A stretch of 57,410 nt of DNA, taken from the IMG/VR virus record IMGVR_UViG_3300015199_000003, positions 1 through 57,410 of that record. One strand, 5' to 3'. The translations under genes and the position numbers were made by a program. The stretch comes from a virus. How positions within the stretch are numbered: position 1 is the first letter of the stretch; the number at the start of each line of letters is the position of its first letter. Shown piece by piece: positions 4,907-57,410 of this stretch. Below the pieces are notes generated by a model. That model made no database searches. It was not told the origin of the DNA and saw nothing but the letters and a program-made list of their open reading frames with translations.

Positions 4907-6288
4907 AGAAACGCATTCACGCCGCCGACTTGTTCTGCGGAGCCGGCGGCACTTCGACCGGGTTGCTCCAAGCGTGCGCTCGATTGGGTCGCCGTGTTGA
5001 ATTGACCGCGATCAATCACTGGGCGCTCGCGGTCGAGACGCATGCCAAGAACCACCCGAAGGCGCATCATGCCTGCGAAGATCTGGCCACGATGGACCCG
5101 CGAAAGGCCATTCCGGGCGGGAAGCTGGATCTTCTGGTTGCCTCTCCCGAATGCACTCATCATTCGGTGGCCCGTGGCGGCAAGCCGGTCAACGATCAGT
5201 CGCGTGCCTCGGCATGGTGCATACTCCGTTGGGCGACGGCGCTGCAGATCAATCGGATCATCATCGAGAACGTGCGCGAGTTCACTTCATGGGGTCCGAT
5301 CGGCAGCAACGGCCGGCCGCTCAAGAGTCGGCGAGGCGAGACGTTCCAGACGTTCCTCGAAGCGCTGCGGAGCCTGGGCTACCGGGTCGATTGGCGCGTG
5401 CTCAACGCTGCCGACTTCGGCGATGCGACGACGCGCGAACGGCTATTCGTTCAGGCGGTTCGCGGCCGACGGGCGCTTCGCTGGCCGGAGCCCACGCACG
5501 CGAAGGATCAACGGCCCGTGCTGTTCAACGATCGCCTTCCGTGGAAGCCCGCTCGCGAAATCATCGACTGGCGGATGCGCGGCCTGAGCATCTTCGGACG
5601 CAAGCGGCCGCTCAGCGAGAACACGCTGACCCGCATCGAGGCGGGTCTGAAGAAGTTCGGCGGCGCGAATGCCGAGCCCTTCCTGCTGCTGTTGCGAGGG
5701 ACAAGCAACTATCACATTGAGCACTCGGCCAAATCGATCGGTCAACCGGTTCCTACGTTCACAACAGGGAACACGCACGGCCTGATCCAGCCATTCATCG
5801 TCAACGCGGCCAATCAAGGCGGAGAAGAGCGGCGCTGCCATTCGCTGGACGATCCGTTGCCGACGGTCACCACAATTAAACGGCACGCATTGGTTCAGCC
5901 ATTCATTCTCCCGCATCGACAATTCGACCGGATGGATGTTGATTCAATCGATCAACCCATGCGCACGGTGACAGCGCAAAACGGCGGAGACAATGCTTTG
6001 GTCGAGCCGTTCCTTGTGCCCTACTACGGCGCGTGCAGCGAAGCCGATTCGATCAATAACCCCATCAGGACAGTAACGACGAAAGACCGTCTCGGCCTCG
6101 TCGAGCCCGCGCAACTGGACATCCTCTTTCGCATGTTGCAGCCGCATGAACTGGCGGCGGCGATGAGCTTTCCGGCCGACTACAAATTCGCTGGCAATCG
6201 CGGCGACATCGTGAAGCAGATCGGCAATGCCGTGCCGGTGGGAATCTCACGCGAATTGTGCGCGGCAACATTGGAGGAAGCAGCGTGA
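4903..6288 (+). CDS. DNA (cytosine-5) methyltransferase
   Basis: A 461-residue protein starting at a TTG that overlaps the rusA stop. Motif I is DLFCGAGGTSTG (about 10-21). The catalytic Cys is at about residue 84 in SPECTHHS, a form of motif IV common in phage enzymes rather than the usual PPCQ. Motif VI (IENVREF), motif VIII (ATTRERLFVQAV) and the C-terminal motifs IX/X (QIGNAVPVGI) are all present. The middle holds several imperfect repeats built on PTVTT/RTVT, the variable target-recognition region. It methylates cytosine at C5, probably to protect phage DNA from host restriction. A strong GGAGGAAG lies at its end for the next gene. Confidence 0.92.
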   Translation: MKKRIHAADLFCGAGGTSTGLLQACARLGRRVELTAINHWALAVETHAKNHPKAHHACEDLATMDPRKAIPGGKLDLLVASPECTHHSVARGGKPVNDQSRASAWCILRWATALQINRIIIENVREFTSWGPIGSNGRPLKSRRGETFQTFLEALRSLGYRVDWRVLNAADFGDATTRERLFVQAVRGRRALRWPEPTHAKDQRPVLFNDRLPWKPAREIIDWRMRGLSIFGRKRPLSENTLTRIEAGLKKFGGANAEPFLLLLRGTSNYHIEHSAKSIGQPVPTFTTGNTHGLIQPFIVNAANQGGEERRCHSLDDPLPTVTTIKRHALVQPFILPHRQFDRMDVDSIDQPMRTVTAQNGGDNALVEPFLVPYYGACSEADSINNPIRTVTTKDRLGLVEPAQLDILFRMLQPHELAAAMSFPADYKFAGNRGDIVKQIGNAVPVGISRELCAATLEEAA

Positions 6289-7484
6289 AGACTCTCTTCG
6301 ACACCGAGCGTATGCAAATGACCGATTCAATCCGCTTGACGGCCGAAAGCCTGCGCGTCCACGGCTCGACCTATGATGATTGGGTTTTCGCCTGGAGCGG
6401 CGGCAAGGATTCAACGACGTGCCTGACTCTGGTTCTCTATCTGATCGAAACGGGTCAGGTTCCAAAGCCCGAGACCATCACGGTTCTGTACGCGGACACC
6501 CGTCAAGAGATTCTGCCACTTTGGCATTGCGCGGCCGAGATCCGCACTGAACTTGGTTTCCGGTCGATCGATTCCCGCGTTGTCCTTCCGCCGCTCGATA
6601 AACGAATGTGGGTCTACATCCTCGGCCGTGGCGTTCCTCCGCCGAACAACAACACGCTTCGCTATTGCACTCGGCAGATCAAAATCGAGCCGATGGCCGA
6701 AGAGGTTCGCAAACTCGCGCAGGCCCGAGGCCGCAAGGTTTTGGTCATCACCGGCGTTCGCCTCGGCGAATCGGCGGCCCGCGACAACCGCATCGCTCTT
6801 TCCTGCTCGACCAACGGGGCCGAATGCGGGCAAGGCTACTTCCAGCAAAGTCTGGAGGGAGCGAATGCGGACACGTTGGCGCCAATCGTTCATTGGCGGG
6901 TCTGCCACGTCTGGGAGTGGCTCAAGCATTGGGCGCCGCAAGCGGAGTTCGGCGACTGGTCAACCGCTTTGCTGGCCGATGCGTACGGCGGAGACGAAGC
7001 GCAGGAAATCAACGCGCGGACTGGCTGCGTCTGCTGTCCGCTGGCAAGTCGGGATTCGGCCCTCGACGCCGTCATCAAGCTGCCGCGCTGGGATTACCTG
7101 GCTCCTCTCAAGAAGATCCGGGGCGTCTATGACGATCTTCGCTTGCCGCGCAACAGGTTGCGGAAGCCCGGCGGCGAACGGCTGAAGGACGGCACGCTTT
7201 GCAAGAATCAGCAGCGCATGGGCCCGTTGACGATGGCCGCTCGGCTGGAGGCCCTTGATCGAGTGCTGACGATCCAAGCGGAAGTGAACACGACAGCGGC
7301 CGGCCGGCCAAGCGTTGACCATCTCGACGCGCAAGAAGAATCGCGCATCCGCGACCTCATCGGAGCGAACACCTGGCCTGATGGGTGGGCAGGAACCGAG
7401 CCGACTGGCGACGTGCTTTTGCCTGGTTATCACGCCGATGGAAGTGTTCAGAATCTTCTCTGGACGGAGGATGTTTTCCAATGA
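6285..7484 (+). CDS. PP-loop ATPase / PAPS-reductase-like protein
   Basis: A 399-residue protein from a GTG start preceded by GGAGGAAG. The PP-loop is FAWSGGKDSTTCLTL at about residues 29-43. Later cysteines lie in a CTRQIK segment and in GCVCCPLASRDSALDAV (about 248), positions that could hold an iron-sulfur cluster. The family activates sulfate or adenylates substrates; members include PAPS reductase and DndC of DNA phosphorothioation. In phages such genes are common but their substrate is unknown. Lying between a C5 methyltransferase and an adenine methyltransferase, it may join in DNA modification, but this is inference. It overlaps the next gene by ATGA. Confidence 0.8.
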   Translation: MKTLFDTERMQMTDSIRLTAESLRVHGSTYDDWVFAWSGGKDSTTCLTLVLYLIETGQVPKPETITVLYADTRQEILPLWHCAAEIRTELGFRSIDSRVVLPPLDKRMWVYILGRGVPPPNNNTLRYCTRQIKIEPMAEEVRKLAQARGRKVLVITGVRLGESAARDNRIALSCSTNGAECGQGYFQQSLEGANADTLAPIVHWRVCHVWEWLKHWAPQAEFGDWSTALLADAYGGDEAQEINARTGCVCCPLASRDSALDAVIKLPRWDYLAPLKKIRGVYDDLRLPRNRLRKPGGERLKDGTLCKNQQRMGPLTMAARLEALDRVLTIQAEVNTTAAGRPSVDHLDAQEESRIRDLIGANTWPDGWAGTEPTGDVLLPGYHADGSVQNLLWTEDVFQ

Positions 7485-13772: not shown

Positions 13773-13778
13773 CGCTGC

Positions 13779-13997
13779 ATGAAAGCCAAGTTCAAATCCG
13801 CTGCTGCCATCTTTCCTAAGCGCTTACGCGAACTCCGCACGGCCGCCGAGATGAGTCAGCCGGCTTTCGCGCTCGCGGTGGGCATTGGCGAGCGATCAGT
13901 TCGCCTCTATGAGTCTGGCGAGATTCCGCCGACGCTGGAAACTCTCGACTCAATGGCCAAAGTGCTGGGAGTCCAGCCTGCCGACCTCATTTCCTGA
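13779..13997 (+). CDS. XRE-family repressor (candidate immunity regulator)
   Basis: A 72-residue single-domain HTH_3 protein: LRELRTAAEMSQPAFALAVG, IGERSVRLYESGEIPPTLET, ending in VLGVQPADLIS. The ATG at 13779 follows the -10 box by only six bases and has no ribosome site, consistent with leaderless translation. The downstream promoter region at 14046-14098 carries two more copies of the operator found in this gene's own promoter, which suggests it controls the following small-gene operon. It has no RecA-cleavable tail, so induction would need an antirepressor or loss of synthesis. Confidence 0.85.
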   Translation: MKAKFKSAAAIFPKRLRELRTAAEMSQPAFALAVGIGERSVRLYESGEIPPTLETLDSMAKVLGVQPADLIS

Positions 13998-44302: not shown

Positions 44303-44421
44303 TTGATCGTAAACCGTGCCGAGACTGGGATTTCCGGATTGCCGCTCAGGAAGAGCGGTCGGCCAACCTGGCCGGGATTGTGGGTACGCATACCCGCGCT
44401 CTCGGCATGGAGGCCGTTCCG

Positions 44422-45732
44422 ATGGTTCATCCACTTCGCGTTCCCAAGCTCCGTTTTCACGCTCCAACCAAGCAACACTACATCTATCTCGGCAAAGGAC
44501 AGGGCAGAAAGTATTTCGGCCGCGACCTGGTCGAGGCTGAGCGGCAATATGGGATTTGGAAGGCGCGGCACATTCTGGCGGGGCCCGGCGCGGCGCCGGC
44601 GATCCAGGCCGGGGACCAAACCATCACGGTCTCAGAAGCGGTCGTCGCCTACCTCCGGCACGCCGACAACTACTATCGAGATCCGCGCGACATCAACCGC
44701 GTCGGCCACGCGATGGCCGTCGTCATGGACGAATTCGGGGCGCTGCCTGTCGGTGAATTCAAATCGAAGGCCCTCAAGCATATCCAAGCCAAGCTGATCG
44801 AACGGCCGGTGATGCGGCGCTTCAAGGCGGGAACCAAGGCAACCGCAACGAAGATCAGCCGCAAATACGCGAACAAGCTCCTCGTTGACGTCGTTCATTG
44901 CTGGCAATGGCTCGTCAGTGAAGAGGTCGTTCCCCCGGAGAACCTGCACGCGATGGAGACGGTGACCCTCATCCACCTTGGCCGGGGCGGCCGCGAGACT
45001 CCACGCGTTCCGCCGGTCGCCCCAGAGGTTGTCGAGGCCACGCTCGCCTATTGCCCTTCGCTGCTCGCAACGATGATTCAAGTCCAACGTCTTACCGGCA
45101 TGAGGCCCGGGGAACTGTGCCGAATGCGTCGATGCGACATCTCGCTTCATCCAAAGGAACGATTGTCGATGCCCGGCATGGAGGATTGGCGGGTGTCGGC
45201 GATGGAGTCGGGGGCCGTGCTCTGCTGGGTCTATGCGCCATCGAAGCACAAGAACCTTCACCGCGGCCAGCCGCGCGCCGTGCTGATCGGCCCGCGCGCC
45301 CAAGAGCTTTTGCGTCCGCTGCTCGATGGGAGGACGGGGGAGGATCATATCTTCGTCCCGCGCGAATCGATGCAGGCATGGCGAGCGATTCAGCGCGAGA
45401 GCCGAAAGACTCGAGTCCAGCCATCCCAAAAGAACCGGGCCAAGCGCCATCCAAGAAAGGGGGCTGGCGATCTCTACCCGGTCAACAGCTACGCCCAGGC
45501 GGTCGAACGCGCGATTGCCCGCGCGAATAAAGCGCGAGCCAAGGAAGGATTGGAGCTTCTACCCAAATGGCGGCCCAACCAGCTCCGCCATTCGGCCGCC
45601 ACGTCGGCAAGCGAGCGCTTCGATGAAACGCACGCGGCGGCAATGCTCGGCCATGCTGGACTCGATGCGGTCCGGATTTATGCCGAACAAGCGCTCGGCA
45701 AAGCGGCAAAGACGGCCGCCGAACTTGGATAG
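44422..45732 (+). CDS. int: Tyrosine integrase
   Basis: A 436-residue site-specific recombinase. The N-terminal part (about 1-130) is a SAM-like core-binding domain; the catalytic part has TGMRPGELCRM (first Arg), PNQLRHSAAT (second Arg region, with Asn where a His is more common) and LGHAGLDAVRIYAEQ (His and the Tyr nucleophile). The start at 44422 follows GGAGG by eight bases. The same frame is open back to 44194, but that stretch translates a tRNA half (the peptide contains VTGSTPVGR, typical of misread T-arms), so it is not coding. Confidence 0.9.
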   Translation: MVHPLRVPKLRFHAPTKQHYIYLGKGQGRKYFGRDLVEAERQYGIWKARHILAGPGAAPAIQAGDQTITVSEAVVAYLRHADNYYRDPRDINRVGHAMAVVMDEFGALPVGEFKSKALKHIQAKLIERPVMRRFKAGTKATATKISRKYANKLLVDVVHCWQWLVSEEVVPPENLHAMETVTLIHLGRGGRETPRVPPVAPEVVEATLAYCPSLLATMIQVQRLTGMRPGELCRMRRCDISLHPKERLSMPGMEDWRVSAMESGAVLCWVYAPSKHKNLHRGQPRAVLIGPRAQELLRPLLDGRTGEDHIFVPRESMQAWRAIQRESRKTRVQPSQKNRAKRHPRKGAGDLYPVNSYAQAVERAIARANKARAKEGLELLPKWRPNQLRHSAATSASERFDETHAAAMLGHAGLDAVRIYAEQALGKAAKTAAELG

Positions 45733-46786: not shown

Positions 46787-47173
46787 GTGTCGATTGTTGC
46801 TCCACCCAAACCGAAACGAGACTGGTCGGCCGTCGTCGCGCGGCTGGACAAGGAAGCCAAGATCAAACTGGCGGAAGCCGCGAAGCTGGTCCCGTGCGAT
46901 CGCGGACGGCGCGGCTACGCCTCGATCGCTCTGCTGGTCAAGTGGATCGTGAAAGGCAAGCGAGGCGCTTTCCTCGATGGCGTGCGCTGTGGACCGGGAA
47001 CGACCTGGTTCACGTCCCGGGAAGCGATCAGGCGGTTCTTCGCCGTGCTGTCGGAGATTGAAGCCAACCGGGCTGGCGGCATCGAGACCGCTGCGGATTT
47101 GTCGCCTTCGGAGCTGGAGCGGAAGGCAAAGCGGGCGCGGGACGCGTGGGAGAAAGAGAGGGCGAGCCGATGA
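46787..47173 (+). CDS. DUF1580-like planctomycetal protein
   Basis: A 128-residue protein from a GTG with GAAGGGA upstream. RRGYASIALLVKWIVKGKRG, then GTTWFTSREAIRRFFAVLSE match the planctomycetal DUF1580 pattern of a short HTH-like fold whose central WI..G and TS.EA are conserved. It may bind DNA, as AlpA-type regulators do. Its presence in the phage supports a planctomycete host. It is convergent with the minus-strand gene at 47182, only eight bases away. Confidence 0.75.
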   Translation: MSIVAPPKPKRDWSAVVARLDKEAKIKLAEAAKLVPCDRGRRGYASIALLVKWIVKGKRGAFLDGVRCGPGTTWFTSREAIRRFFAVLSEIEANRAGGIETAADLSPSELERKAKRARDAWEKERASR

Positions 47174-47181
47174 ATGCGAAC

Positions 47182-47538
47182 TTACTTCTTACGGGCTGCG
47201 ATTTTGCTGCCGACAAGAAACACCGAGCCGATCAAGGCGATGCCGAGCCCGAAGAAGGCCGAAATCACATCTCGCAGCGCGAGCGCGTAGAGCGTGAACG
47301 ATGCGCCGCCAACAATGAGGATGCCGCCAGCGAGGGCTATTCCACTACCAGACCATCGCGGCTTCGCGGATTGAGAAGTTTGGGCGGTCGGCGTGCCAGA
47401 TGGTTTCAGATTGTCGAGCGGAAGGAATTGCTCATTGCAGTGAGCGCAGCACCATTCCGCCATGAGGTTGCTCCCATGCACAGACATGGTCTGAGAACAT
47501 GCAGGGCAAGCGACGCGAACCATTCCGGATTCGGACAT
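47182..47538 (-). CDS. Zinc-ribbon membrane protein
   Basis: A 118-residue protein. Residues 8-40 carry CPACSQTM and CCAHCNEQF, a zinc ribbon; two transmembrane helices follow (about 66-90 and 93-110). It is the last gene of the minus-strand module-1 operon. Such ribbon-plus-helix proteins are common in planctomycetes. The long plus-strand frame across this region is a shadow. Confidence 0.72.
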   Translation of the reverse strand: MSESGMVRVACPACSQTMSVHGSNLMAEWCCAHCNEQFLPLDNLKPSGTPTAQTSQSAKPRWSGSGIALAGGILIVGGASFTLYALALRDVISAFFGLGIALIGSVFLVGSKIAARKK

Positions 47539-47553
47539 TGCTCAAACTCCGGT

Positions 47554-48267
47554 CTATTTCTTATCGAGCTTCGCAAGCCTCTCGCGGGCCTTCTTTGCGG
47601 CCATCGTATCCGGGTACTTCTCGATCAATTCGAGCAAGTGGATGCGAGCGGTGATTTTGTCGTAGAGTCTCTGGGCTTCGACTTCGTCGCTGGCTTTCTT
47701 GGCGATGGCCGCTTCGGCGTCGGCTCTCTCTTTGGCGATTCGCTCGGCTTGAGCCTTGATCGCAGCCAGGCGAGCCGCTTCCTTGTCTTTCGCAATCCGG
47801 TCAGCTTCATCCTTCGTCTTCTGTTCCGGAGTTCGCTCGGCAAGTCGTTTTTCTTCGGCCGCTTTGCCATCAGTGATTTTCTTTTCCTTCTTCTGTGCAA
47901 ATTCCTTGATCGCAGCGTCAACCCATCTTTTGCGCTCGCCTTCCTTGAGAATCTTCCGCGCCTGGTCCTCGGTTATTCCGTATTTCGCGGCGATGTTTTT
48001 CAGCGCTTTTTCGTGACCTTCGCGGACATGCTCAACAAGATCTTTATCAGAGATGCCCGGCTTCGCTTCGCGCTGAGCCTCCATAAAGAGGCCGATTACG
48101 ATGGAATAATCGACGTAGAACTTTTTGCGGTTCGGCTCTGGGACCTCGGCCGCGACATCATCATCCTCGGCTTTGCCGCCAGTACCACCGTTCTGGCTTG
48201 TACCGCAAGCGCAGAGCATCGCGATGAAAATCGCCTGGATTCCGAAGCGTCGAATGATGGTGAACAC
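47554..48267 (-). CDS. Lipoprotein with coiled coil
   Basis: A 237-residue protein. MFTIIRRFGIQAIFIAMLCA with C at 21 is a lipoprotein signal (lipobox MLCAC). The mature part is Lys/Glu/Ala-rich with a coiled coil from about 90 to 205, ending in a ILELIEKYPDTMAAKKARER-like helical repeat. It would be anchored in the cytoplasmic or outer membrane facing the periplasm. Exposed lipoproteins are typical superinfection-exclusion factors in other phages. It is in the RHH-headed operon. Confidence 0.75.
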   Translation of the reverse strand: MFTIIRRFGIQAIFIAMLCACGTSQNGGTGGKAEDDDVAAEVPEPNRKKFYVDYSIVIGLFMEAQREAKPGISDKDLVEHVREGHEKALKNIAAKYGITEDQARKILKEGERKRWVDAAIKEFAQKKEKKITDGKAAEEKRLAERTPEQKTKDEADRIAKDKEAARLAAIKAQAERIAKERADAEAAIAKKASDEVEAQRLYDKITARIHLLELIEKYPDTMAAKKARERLAKLDKK

Positions 48268-48288
48268 GTTCAGTTCCCCGCGAGAGCG

Positions 48289-48666
48289 CTAACGGCCATA
48301 CCTGAAAACCACAAAAAGTATAAACGCGAGAATAGCGGCCACCGTAAAAATGCAGCCGGCCAAATTCTCGCCGAGTCCTTTTCCAAAGCCGAATCCGAAT
48401 CCAGTCGAGAAGCTGTTTTCGACCCGATGGACGTTGCGCACGGTTCGCGGCGCGGGATCGTCGTCGAACTCGAAGTCAACCGCCTGCATGGGAAGCGGTT
48501 GAATGATCGGAGCCGGGCGGACGGGGATCGGCTCTGGTGGTGCCACGTGGTCAGACGGTCGAAGCGGCCCGCGACAAGTCGGGCAAATGGTATCGACCGT
48601 CAGGAATCGCGGATCGACTTGCATCCGGCCTTGGCAGTGGGGGCACTGAACAATAACGGGGTTCAT
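48289..48666 (-). CDS. Zinc-ribbon protein with C-terminal membrane helix
   Basis: A 125-residue protein. MNPVIVQCPHCQGRMQVDPR and TICPTCRGPL make one ribbon; a Pro-rich linker and a Gly/Phe-rich segment follow, and the C-terminus (AGCIFTVAAILAFILFVVFR) is a transmembrane helix. Start chosen at MNPV, where the typical ribbon opening lies. It begins two bases after the RHH stop, so the two are translated together. Confidence 0.7.
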   Translation of the reverse strand: MNPVIVQCPHCQGRMQVDPRFLTVDTICPTCRGPLRPSDHVAPPEPIPVRPAPIIQPLPMQAVDFEFDDDPAPRTVRNVHRVENSFSTGFGFGFGKGLGENLAGCIFTVAAILAFILFVVFRYGR

Positions 48667-48668
48667 GT

Positions 48669-48872
48669 TTACCGTTTTGGTTTTGGCTTGGGGCTGGCTT
48701 GGACCTCTGCACGAAGCCGCGCGCGTTCGGCCTGCGACTGGAGCATGAACTTGTTGAGGGCGTACCGAATCCAATTGGAGAGATCCATCCCGTTCTCTTC
48801 CGCCTCAAGCCGCCATTGCTCAATCGAATCGGAAGGCGCTTGTAGGTCTATTCGGTTCTTCGTCTTGGACAT
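48669..48872 (-). CDS. Ribbon-helix-helix regulator, long form (module 1)
   Basis: A 67-residue protein. RIDLQAPSDSIEQWRLEAEE and NGMDLSNWIRYALNKFM give the beta strand plus two helices of an RHH (Arc/MetJ-type) DNA-binding domain; a Gln/Arg/Glu helix and basic tail follow. It shares the WxxxAE(E/Q)xGxxLSxWIR pattern with three other proteins at 49066, 50031 and 50407. It heads the minus-strand operon with three envelope proteins, and would repress both divergent promoters. Confidence 0.8.
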   Translation of the reverse strand: MSKTKNRIDLQAPSDSIEQWRLEAEENGMDLSNWIRYALNKFMLQSQAERARLRAEVQASPKPKPKR

Positions 48873-48968
48873 TGACGGCATTTCCAAAGTAGCGATCACG
48901 GTAATTCTCCGGGTCTGTTACGGAAAGCGTACACAGGTTATTCGTCCAAAGCGATACAGGATATTTGC

Positions 48969-49038
48969 GGGAAATTCCCGGTTCTGATACAAAATCAGAA
49001 AATAGCGCTTGACAAGATCCGGGCTAGACCCGTATATT
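48969..49038. promoter_or_regulatory. Divergent control region of module 1
   Basis: On the plus strand TTGACA (49009-49014) and TATATT (49033-49038) are 18 bases apart. CGGGAA-A-TTCCCG (48969-48981) is a perfect palindrome and TTCTGAT-ACAAA-ATCAGAA (48982-49000) another, both placed between the divergent genes. They are candidate operators of the RHH proteins. The minus-strand promoter could not be placed with confidence. Confidence 0.6.
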
Positions 49039-49065
49039 TCCCGTGTCTCATATGGAGCCAATCGG

Positions 49066-49221
49066 ATGAACCAGACAGCGTTAAAGCAGCGGGTGGAAGT
49101 GCAGGCCGACAAGAAGCATGTCGATTCGTGGAAGAAAGCCGCCGAGCAAAACGGCCAAGATCTGACGAATTGGATTCGCTCGACCCTCATCCGTGCCGCG
49201 AAAGAATGCGCAAAGAAGTGA
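49066..49221 (+). CDS. Ribbon-helix-helix regulator, short form (module 1)
   Basis: A 51-residue RHH protein with GGAG nine bases before the ATG: KQRVEVQADKKHVDSWKKAA, then EQNGQDLTNWIRSTLIR. It matches the minus-strand neighbour in its WIR core but lacks the long tail. The downstream duplicated block begins at its stop codon. Confidence 0.78.
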   Translation: MNQTALKQRVEVQADKKHVDSWKKAAEQNGQDLTNWIRSTLIRAAKECAKK

Positions 49222-49456
49222 ACCATTAACGGGGCAGCGCTGGACGCTCAAGGGTAAACGAAGGAACGCCCGGCTGCTGCCCCACCAAACAAGGAATCGA
49301 CCGATGATCGCTTTCCTGATTATTCTCGCGGTCTGCATGCCGCTCACCTACCTGCTCACGCGGTTGATCTACCGCGACTGGCGCGACTGGAATGATTGGT
49401 GCGAGAAGCATGAGGCTCGTGGTCGCGAAGCTCGCCGGGTTGATGCCCTGATCGGA
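49216..49456 (+). repeat. Duplicated block, copy 1 (leader plus small membrane gene)
   Basis: This 241-base block is about 91% identical (roughly 21 differences by hand count) to 50560-50801. Both copies begin at the stop codon of a short RHH gene and end inside the same codon region of a small membrane gene (CTGATCGGA). Both hold a leader with the stem GGGGCAGC...GCTGCCCC enclosing about 37 bases. Copy 1 ends abruptly against the 3' side of a minus-strand gene. Confidence 0.9.
49304..49456 (+). pseudogene. Small membrane protein, copy 1, natural C-terminus lost
   Basis: MIAFLIILAVCMPLTYLLTR and the WCEKHEARGREARRVDALIG end match the intact copy at 50649 with only three amino-acid changes, but the last seven residues (LMKDKRY) are missing. 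The frame instead runs on to 49879 through the antisense of a secreted-protein gene. It may still give a working membrane helix with a junk tail. Most base changes from copy 2 are at third codon positions, so the protein was under selection for some time after duplication. Confidence 0.75.
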
Positions 49457-50028
49457 CCGCCAACGGGCCCGGCTCCGGATGCCGGGAATCTCCTTATGCC
49501 CTCCAAGAGAACCTCATCCGCGGTGAGGATCTCGATCGCTTTGAAGGAATCGACCGCGAGCCAATTCTTTTGGTCGCCGATGCCCTGGGGCCCGAATTTG
49601 CCAACGGCTTCGAATTCCCATTTGAATGGCTCGACCTTGGGCGCTTCAAGCTGCGCTACTTCCTTTTTCTTCTTCGAAACGATCTTAGCCCCAGGGACTG
49701 CTTGGAGTGTGAATTCGCCGCGCTCAAACGACTTGACCTCAAATTCGCCATCGAAACCGATGGGCTCGTTTGCGTCGATTCCTTTGGTCGGAATTCCTTT
49801 GACAACGAATGCGAAGCCAGTCGAGCGGAGAACGCTTGCCCGAAGCGAGTTTTCGGACAGAACTTTGTCGCAAGCATAGCTGATGTCGCTGAGCGGTCCC
49901 TTGGTGCCGACAACGAATTTGTAAACGAAGGCGTTTGTCGCCGATCGAAACGCGGGGCCAATCGGCCGCGGGTCATCCGCCGAACAAACCGCCGCGGTCA
50001 ACAAGAAAATGAATGCAGCAGTTGGCAT
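49369..50028 (-). CDS. Secreted protein of module 2, 3' end replaced
   Basis: A 219-residue frame. MPTAAFIFLLTAAVCSADDP is a signal peptide. The middle (SYACDKVLSENSLRASVLRS, FDGEFEVKSFERGEFTLQAV) is beta-rich with no known family. From about residue 190 onward the frame reads the antisense of the duplicated block, so its true C-terminus was cut off when copy 1 was joined here (junction near 49457). It starts two bases after the RHH stop, as in module 1. Confidence 0.65.
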   Translation of the reverse strand: MPTAAFIFLLTAAVCSADDPRPIGPAFRSATNAFVYKFVVGTKGPLSDISYACDKVLSENSLRASVLRSTGFAFVVKGIPTKGIDANEPIGFDGEFEVKSFERGEFTLQAVPGAKIVSKKKKEVAQLEAPKVEPFKWEFEAVGKFGPQGIGDQKNWLAVDSFKAIEILTADEVLLEGIRRFPASGAGPVGGPIRASTRRASRPRASCFSHQSFQSRQSR

Positions 50029-50030
50029 GT

Positions 50031-50228
50031 CTACCTCTTTGTTCTTGGCGGCTCAGCTTCGCGGTCGAGCCGGGCCCGCTCGGCTCTTCCGATTCGCATC
50101 GCCGTGTTCAGGGTGTCCCGAATCCAAGCGGATAATGACAAGCCGCGCTCGGTGGCCTCATCTTCCCATTTGGCCTTCGTTGATTCAGGAACCCGAATTT
50201 CGACGCGCGTTTCGCCAGTCTTCGGCAT
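50031..50228 (-). CDS. Ribbon-helix-helix regulator, long form (module 2)
   Basis: A 65-residue RHH protein: ETRVEIRVPESTKAKWEDEA, TERGLSLSAWIRDTLNTAM and a tail RIGRAERARLDREAEPPRTK resembling the tail of the module-1 long form. It leads the minus-strand operon with the secreted protein. A good TATAAT on the minus strand lies at 50285-50290, before the gene. Confidence 0.8.
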   Translation of the reverse strand: MPKTGETRVEIRVPESTKAKWEDEATERGLSLSAWIRDTLNTAMRIGRAERARLDREAEPPRTKR

Positions 50229-50284
50229 AGCGAGGGTACTCAGTTGCACCGTAAATTCTCCGTACAAGGAAAGATCGTAGCACA

Positions 50285-50376
50285 ATTATATTCGGATACC
50301 ATCCCGCACTATTCCGTACGTTGTTAGGAATTTTGTCGGAATTGTTCTTGACGCGTTGTAACAATGAACGTACTCT
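50285..50376. promoter_or_regulatory. Divergent control region of module 2
   Basis: Plus strand: TTGACG (50348-50353), 17 bases, TACTCT (50371-50376). Minus strand: a TATAAT at 50285-50290 without a clear -35. Between them lie the repeated elements CCGTACGTTGTT (near 50313) and TCCGTACAAC (near 50378), and the small palindrome TTGTAACAA, which may be RHH binding sites. Confidence 0.55.
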
Positions 50377-50406
50377 GTCCGTACAACTGACGGAGAGGAA
50401 AGACAA

Positions 50407-50565
50407 ATGCCAGCGACAGCAGAGAAGAGAGTCGAATTGCGAACGAGCGATAAGCAATTGCGAGAGTGGCGACGCGCCGCCGAAGAACGCGGCCTCGGAC
50501 TATCCGCATGGATTCGCGACACACTCAACGCAAAAGCCCGTGAGCAACGACAAATAAGAAAGTGA
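50407..50565 (+). CDS. Ribbon-helix-helix regulator, short form (module 2)
   Basis: A 52-residue protein with GGAGAGGAAAG upstream. MPATAEKRVELRTSDKQLRE and the GLGLSAWIRDTLN core make an RHH domain; the GLxLSAWIRDTLN stretch is identical in spirit to the module-2 long form. Copy 2 of the duplicated block begins at its stop. Confidence 0.78.
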   Translation: MPATAEKRVELRTSDKQLREWRRAAEERGLGLSAWIRDTLNAKAREQRQIRK

Positions 50566-50801
50566 AACCATTAACGGGGCAGCGTCGGACGCTCAAGGGT
50601 AAACGAAGGAACGCCCGGCCGCTGCCCCACCAAACAAGGAACCGACCGATGATCGCCTTCCTGATCATTCTGGCAACCTGTATGCCGCTCACTTACTTGC
50701 TCACGCGGTTGATCTACCGCGACTGGCGGGAATGGAACGAGTGGTGTGAGAAGCACGAAGCTCGTGGTCGCGAAGCTCGCCGGGTTGATGCCCTGATCGG
50801 A
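50560..50801 (+). repeat. Duplicated block, copy 2 (leader plus intact small membrane gene)
   Basis: The second copy of the 49216-49456 block. The leader stem is GGGGCAGCG...CGCTGCCCC; one position that is G-U in copy 1 is G-C here, so pairing is kept. ACGAAGGAACG in the loop and CAAGGA before the ATG both carry the GGA core that CsrA recognises. Confidence 0.88.
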
Positions 50802-50825
50802 CTGATGAAGGACAAGAGGTATTGA
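50649..50825 (+). CDS. Small membrane protein, intact copy
   Basis: A 58-residue protein: one transmembrane helix (MIAFLIILATCMPLTYLLTR, 1-20), then WREWNEWCEKHEARGREARR and a basic end. The CAAGGA site before the ATG follows a conserved leader hairpin. It would sit in the membrane with its charged tail inside. Its association with RHH repressors suggests a product whose level must be limited. Confidence 0.75.
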   Translation: MIAFLIILATCMPLTYLLTRLIYRDWREWNEWCEKHEARGREARRVDALIGLMKDKRY

Positions 50826-50898
50826 TCGGGGATCCGCCATGCCGCTGAAGTGAGGGTCAACGGTTCTGGTGGACCCCGATCTATTTGGAGATGCGAAT

Positions 50899-51194: not shown

Positions 51195-51198
51195 AATT

Positions 51199-51281
51199 CG
51201 GGGAGTAGCTCAGACAGGTTAGAGCGGCGAGTTTTAGGCAATGGGACTCGCAGGTCGGAGGTTCAAACCCTTCCTCCCTGA
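51199..51281 (+). tRNA. tRNA-like gene with a 15-base anticodon loop
   Basis: All arms fold: acceptor CGGGGAG (51199-51205) with CTCCCTG (51274-51280, one G-U); TA; D-arm GCTC-AGACAGGTTA-GAGC (51208-51225); anticodon stem GCGAG/CTCGC (51227-51231, 51247-51251); variable AGGTC; T-arm GGAGG-TTCAAAC-CCTTC (51257-51273, one G-U). The anticodon loop is 15 bases (TTTTAGGCAATGGGA) instead of seven. Extra pairs T-A and three G-U could extend the stem and leave the seven-base loop AGGCAAT. CCA is not encoded. Amino acid cannot be assigned. Confidence 0.7.
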
Positions 51282-51282
51282 T

Positions 51283-52188: not shown

Positions 52189-52383
52189 ATGCTCTGTCTC
52201 ACTCGAAAGATCGGTCAGGAAATCATCATCGACGGCAACATTGTGGTAACCATAGTGGCCGTGAAAGGTGATTCTGTGCGGATCGGCATAAGCGCCCCAA
52301 AAGAGACGCGCGTCGATCGCGCCGAAGTCCATGAAGCGCGGAAGCGCGGTTTCGATGGCGCTCAAGCCTGCGGAGAATCGTGA
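52189..52383 (+). CDS. csrA: Carbon storage regulator CsrA
   Basis: A 64-residue protein of full CsrA length. MLCLTRKIGQEIIIDGNIVV, then VKGDSVRIGISAPKETRVDR contains the conserved Leu4, Arg6 and the GISAPKE strand with Arg44, which bind the GGA motif of RNA. The strong ribosome site CACGGAGG in its own leader has the CsrA core (CANGGA), so it may regulate itself. Several phage genes have CAAGGA ribosome sites (13160, 42143, 50649), possible targets. CsrA would alter translation of host or phage messages after infection. Confidence 0.93.
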   Translation: MLCLTRKIGQEIIIDGNIVVTIVAVKGDSVRIGISAPKETRVDRAEVHEARKRGFDGAQACGES

Positions 52384-57217: not shown

Positions 57218-57410
57218 ACTCAGACTACGAATGCTTCGTGCGGACAATCATGGCGAATCCGGCCGATCAGCTCGCGCGGCTGGTGTTCGCGGATTGGCTG
57301 GAGGACAACGCTGATTGGCTGCCGAGTCACGGCTATCTGATCGCTGGCGATATGCGCAGTACGCCGGCGCTTTGTGGTGGTGGTGGTGGTGGTGATGGTG
57401 GTGGTGGTGG
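57214..57410 (+). CDS. TIGR02996-like N-terminal part (gene continues at base 2)
   Basis: A partial gene of 65 codons. MNSDYECFVRTIMANPADQL, then ARLVFADWLEDNADWLPSHG matches the start of the short TIGR02996 domain (LVFADWLEE.D-type) found in large numbers in Gemmata-like planctomycetes. It then runs into a Gly-rich stretch and off the end with two bases of a codon. Base 1 completes GGT and the frame continues to the TGA at 361. The domain is of unknown function. In a phage it suggests exchange with a planctomycete host. Confidence 0.75.
   Translation, partial: MNSDYECFVRTIMANPADQLARLVFADWLEDNADWLPSHGYLIAGDMRSTPALCGGGGGGDGGGG
57376..57410. repeat. GGT-rich low-complexity tract at right end
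   Basis: Eleven GGT or GAT codons in a row, mirroring the tract at 1-47. Its true length is uncertain because assemblers shorten such repeats. Confidence 0.85.

Follow-up and report, generated by a model that had tools for sequence, protein, structure and literature searches.

Two paired RHH gene modules in a probably temperate phage resemble the immI region of phage P22

Two divergent RHH modules lie side by side

The window, by which we mean the whole stretch of DNA analysed, is a virus record of 57,410 bases that carries an integrase gene at 44377-45732, and the phage is therefore probably temperate. We found that two divergent units adjoin each other in this record, module A at 48669-49457 and module B at 50031-50825, where a first-pass annotation of the sequence had placed them. 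As that annotation had also proposed, a long and a short ribbon-helix-helix (RHH) gene share a divergent control region in each unit, with envelope genes beside them. The modules consist of the following parts.

48669-48872, minus strand: LongA, 67 aa, with a C-terminal AERARL tail, in the Mnt-like position (ORF, phrog_6506, alignment)
48873-49065, between the divergent genes: module A control region, 193 nt, with CGGGN5CCCG at 48968-48980 and 49020-49032
49066-49221, plus strand: ShortA, 51 aa, in the Arc-like position (ORF, alignment, phrog_6506)
49222-49303, plus strand: leader A, 82 nt, with a hairpin of 13 bp whose loop region holds AAGGA, and with ACAAGGA at the ribosome site
49304-49457, plus strand: copy A of the small membrane protein, conserved for 51 residues, after which its own stop is lost
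50031-50228, minus strand: LongB, 65 aa (alignment, phrog_6506, AlphaFold model, PDB matches)
50229-50406, between the divergent genes: module B control region, 178 nt, with GTAC at 50236, 50262, 50316, 50370 and 50381
50407-50565, plus strand: ShortB, 52 aa (ORF, alignment, phrog_6506)
50566-50648, plus strand: leader B, 83 nt, 95% identical to leader A, with the same hairpin
50649-50825, plus strand: copy B of the small membrane protein, intact at 58 aa

Several other features of the record were noted. A tRNA-Leu gene (51198-51282, plus strand) lies directly downstream of module B, and no partial copy of it of at least 14 nt was found elsewhere in the record. GGT/GAT-type simple repeats occupy both record ends (1-80 and 57331-57410), which may reflect a circular or permuted genome cut within a low-complexity stretch. 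A Cro/C1-type HTH protein encoded at 13776-13997 on the plus strand (Pfam HTH_3, E 1.2e-11), distant from the RHH modules, is a candidate for the main immunity repressor. At 4957-7484, a DNA cytosine methyltransferase-like ORF is followed by a PAPS-reductase-like ORF, both identified by reading only; in Burkholderia phage JC1, PAPS reductase occurs alongside CsrA (PMC9144972). A planctomycete host for the phage was confirmed by none of the searches.

Four related RHH genes

The four RHH proteins are similar to one another far above chance, with pairwise z values of 9-22. Both long proteins end in the AERARL-type tail that had been described for them. The motif WxxxAEExGxxLSxWIR had been ascribed to all four proteins; it fits LongA and ShortB exactly but not the whole set, of which the four-way invariant core is W-A-G-L-WIR-L. 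Between modules A and B, the RHH genes have 54-55% DNA identity.

To place these proteins in a family, we compared them with profile libraries. The PHROGs family phrog_6506, named 'Arc-like repressor', has its only matches in the record at these four genes, with modest E-values of 7e-5 to 5e-4. The Pfam RHH models all scored below their cut-offs on the four genes, and we therefore tested the fold directly with a structure model. Predicted with AlphaFold at a mean pLDDT of 81, the LongB model contains helices at residues 15-27 and 32-58, with the strand unassigned in this monomer. Its PDB matches include CopG, Arc, AtaR, NikA, TacA1 and VapB with probabilities of up to 1.00, although their E-values are weak, none being below 0.001, as is expected for 65 residues. 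Together, the structure matches and the phrog_6506 profile support the RHH identity given to these proteins at first pass.

DNA and protein scans of viral_contigs, genome_contigs, phages and plasmids, whose reach is limited to close relatives, found neither a close relative of these RHH genes nor a related RHH pair. Among the loci inspected, one (L003) was a chance match within a clamp-loader-like gene, and three others (L004, L006 and L015) were rejected as paired relatives, their RHH genes being single, unpaired and in other contexts.

Envelope genes on the minus strand

In both modules, the next minus-strand ORF starts exactly 2 nt behind the long RHH gene, at 48666 and 50028, as had been noted. 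The products encoded on this strand are the following.

47182-47523, minus strand: zinc-ribbon protein with two C-terminal TM stretches (from the sequence)
47554-48267, minus strand: lipoprotein-like protein, 237 aa, with the lipobox LCAC
48289-48666, minus strand: zinc-ribbon protein with CxxC pairs and a C-terminal TM stretch at residues 102-120, behind LongA
49369-50028, minus strand: exported protein with a signal-like start, behind LongB; its C terminus is antisense to membrane gene A

No family match for the exported protein was found in Pfam, PHROGs or NCBIfam, and its structure model was uninformative (pLDDT 37). We took a 613-aa plus-strand ORF at 47146-48987 for an artefact lying antisense to the minus-strand genes.

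A conserved payload behind divergent repressors

The small membrane protein has a single N-terminal transmembrane stretch and no family match in Pfam, PHROGs or NCBIfam. Its two copies differ at 15 codons but in only 3 amino acids (dN 0.035, dS 0.45, dN/dS ~0.08), a pattern of substitution that indicates a real gene under selection. The expectation of one such protein per module was borne out in that both copies are present, but copy A is damaged, its last codons and stop codon being missing. Past residue 51, the frame of copy A continues antisense through the exported-protein gene; the tails of these convergent genes overlap at 49369-49480, with the C terminus of each antisense to the other gene. 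The damage looks like a deletion that removed the stop codons of both convergent genes. Behind the intact membrane gene, a strong hairpin at 50824-50881 (GATCGGGG...CCCCGATC), which has no T run, is a possible processing or termination element.

The leader and membrane ORF together form a cassette of 237 nt that is 92% identical between the modules, far above the identity of the RHH genes, and identity breaks off abruptly where the short RHH gene ends, at its stop codon. This comparison indicates that the repressor pair and its payload evolved separately: the cassette may have been copied from one module to the other, or it may have received different repressor pairs by recombination.

The leader as a putative RNA element

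The structured leader reported at first pass was recovered as a 13-bp hairpin common to both copies, with a z value of about -2.5. It carries 4 changes in 82 positions, compared with 13 in the 51 third codon positions of the membrane ORF (Fisher p 0.0009), a constraint close to that of first and second codon positions, although with two sequences patchy gene conversion could also make the leader look slow. Because it changes more slowly than silent positions and keeps a common hairpin, the leader is probably a functional RNA. It has no Rfam family (a 16-bit match to ALIL lies far under the gathering score), and the record holds no third copy. Lacking a T run, the leader is absent from the intrinsic terminators listed.

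The phage encodes its own CsrA.

52189-52383, plus strand: CsrA gene (Pfam PF02599, E 1.9e-20; TIGR00202 marginally below the family cut-off)

Each leader contains two ANGGA sites 30 nt apart, one of which is the ACAAGGA over the ribosome site. The form ACARGGA at a ribosome site occurs at 2 of the 70 Shine-Dalgarno-bearing starts in the record, and these are the two leaders, which as duplicates count as one event. A phage CsrA gene together with paired ANGGA sites recalls CsrA-controlled leaders and csrA morons, the latter known from phages such as Burkholderia phage JC1 (PMC9144972). The likeness is incomplete in that folding predicts a mostly paired GGA at the upstream site. We regard binding of the leaders by the phage's own CsrA as putative, a guess that makes this protein a candidate regulator.

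Candidate operators differ between the modules

The control regions of modules A and B are 45% identical, and each contains a motif of its own. In module A, the inverted repeat CGGGN5CCCG occurs twice, and these are its only two occurrences in the whole record; some repeated 4-nt inverted repeat is found in 4% of 193-nt windows. The 178 nt of the module B control region hold five copies of GTAC, where the record as a whole predicts 0.23, and no other 178-nt window has five; against a composition-matched random model, the enrichment is weaker (expected 1.16, p 0.007 uncorrected). Three of the five GTAC sites lie within CCGTAC, a hexamer present four times in the entire record. Both motifs coincide with promoter-like sequences of the short genes.

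49009-49038, plus strand: strong ShortA promoter, TTGACA-18-TATATT, with the spacer filled by CGGGN5CCCG at 49020-49032
50348-50376, plus strand: ShortB promoter-like sequence, TTGACG-17-TACTCT, with a GTAC pair 11 bp apart that overlaps and follows the -10

No leftward promoter at consensus level was found in the control regions. We consider CGGGN5CCCG and CCGTAC candidate operators for modules A and B, respectively.

The DNA-contacting residues of Arc are Q9, N11 and R13 of its strand. The residues aligned to them are R-E-R in both LongB and ShortB, and R-D-Q and R-E-Q in the module A proteins. Motifs and contact residues are thus alike within modules and different between them, which suggests that each module may have its own insulated DNA specificity. 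Matching contact residues within a module are compatible with shared operators, bound by homodimers or heterodimers alike.

The modules share the anatomy of P22 immI

The mnt/arc arrangement, familiar from textbooks as a switch, has been described mainly in P22-like Salmonella phages. The first-pass annotation had known of no described system with the present layout, a claim contradicted by the immI region of Salmonella phage P22, which has the same anatomy. In P22 immI (X01916), mnt (83 aa, minus strand) is separated by 90 nt from arc (53 aa, plus strand), which is followed by 68 nt containing a hairpin and then by ant. Gene order and orientation are the same here and sizes are similar: long genes of 67/65 aa, control regions of 193/178 nt, short genes of 51/52 aa, hairpin gaps of 82/83 nt and then the membrane ORF. 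In both modules, as in P22, divergent long and short RHH genes share one control region, and the short gene lies upstream of the effector. The likeness extends to the envelope or exclusion gene on the side of the long gene: in a P22 relative a SieA-like exclusion gene lies farther along on the mnt side, and sieA belongs to the immI region (PMC2629481, PMC8022706). Mnt of P22 is a repressor of arc and ant; Arc in turn represses mnt and moderates ant, whose mRNA is bound by the antisense RNA sar (PMC11016777). The 'ant moron', comprising sieA, mnt, arc, sar and ant, is highly variable among P22-like phages (PMC2629481, PMC8022706).

The modules also differ from immI. In place of an Ant-type antirepressor, the effector here is an unrelated 58-aa single-TM protein, and no Ant homologue was found in the modules. 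The module is doubled, with two apparent specificities. The leader is conserved between the copies, and no sar-like antisense promoter common to both leaders was recognised; a minus-strand promoter matching 9 of 12 positions is present in copy B only. The first contact residue differs between P22 Arc and Mnt (Q/H), whereas the long and short proteins of module B match at this position. At the level of sequence, P22 Arc matched phrog_6506 with an E-value of only 0.034, a profile built from our four RHH genes scored P22 Arc at E 2.3 in a scan of fetched loci, and tblastn of LongB and ShortB in phages gave no match reaching P22. As judged by these comparisons, orthology of the RHH genes to Arc or Mnt cannot be demonstrated. 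The modules are therefore described, by analogy, as ones that may work like immI, and because Ant has no counterpart in them we do not call them members of the mnt/arc/ant family. Relative to P22, the controlled gene, the doubling of the module and the strongly conserved RNA hairpin are new.

Proposed working of the modules

We think it probable that the two units are paralogous P22 immI-type (mnt/arc-like) regulatory modules in a temperate phage that work as follows. A strong rightward promoter would first express the short RHH protein together with the small membrane protein, and the short protein would then shut this promoter as an Arc-like autorepressor. In the lysogen, a weaker leftward promoter would express the long RHH protein and the envelope proteins, and the long protein would hold the rightward operon off in the prophage, as Mnt does. 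The membrane protein would thus appear as a short burst upon infection or induction. With its own operator, each module would be free of cross-regulation by the other. In the place where P22 uses sar, the hairpin leader may regulate the membrane protein a second time, at the level of RNA, with the phage CsrA as the candidate binder.

A different possibility is that the small membrane protein is a toxin whose antitoxins are the RHH proteins, in a type I-like or RHH-controlled addiction module. RHH antitoxins are common, and AtaR, TacA1 and VapB are among the fold matches of LongB; a 58-aa transmembrane protein with a charged tail behind a hairpin leader may also be said to resemble small membrane toxins. 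The fold is indeed that of type II RHH antitoxins such as AtaR, TacA and VapB, but a toxin partner was not found: searches of Pfam, PHROGs, NCBIfam and PADLOC detected no known toxin family beside the four genes. Moreover, each module has two RHH genes facing apart, which is atypical of an antitoxin-toxin operon. We consider this explanation unlikely.

Quite improbable, in our estimate, is a strict form of the first-pass interpretation, in which long and short RHH proteins would dimerise only with each other and the module products would be superinfection-exclusion factors. Arc and Mnt of P22 function separately, which argues against obligate mixing. The equal or nearly equal DNA-contact residues of the long and short proteins of one module would suit mixed dimers, and homodimers equally well. 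As for exclusion, sieA sits in the same region of P22 (PMC8022706), and by analogy a role of the products in superinfection exclusion is plausible, but no protein-family or defence-library (PADLOC) match was found for them.

It is very improbable that the modules are unconnected moron cassettes, in which each RHH protein autoregulates the operon of its own strand and the layout arose by tandem duplication of the region; the unequal identity of cassette (92%) and RHH genes (~54% in DNA) does indicate that parts were exchanged separately, but both modules agree in the order of their parts, in the 2 nt that follow the long gene and in the length of the leader (82-83 nt), and contact residues match within modules.

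The immI-type interpretation can be extended in a way that we regard as tentative and somewhat unlikely: the leader would be a new regulatory RNA under the phage CsrA, and the RHH pair a swappable specificity cartridge placed before a fixed RNA and membrane-protein payload. If this is true, the small membrane protein would be under three layers of phage control, namely the short RHH protein, the long RHH protein and RNA.

The finding of two copies of the mnt/arc anatomy in an unrelated phage, with different apparent operators and another payload, suggests that pairs of a long and a short RHH gene placed back to back serve generally as a control cartridge. The slow change of the leader points to regulation at the RNA step, which is testable. 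Two such modules in one genome offer a direct test bed for how paired RHH repressors separate their specificities.
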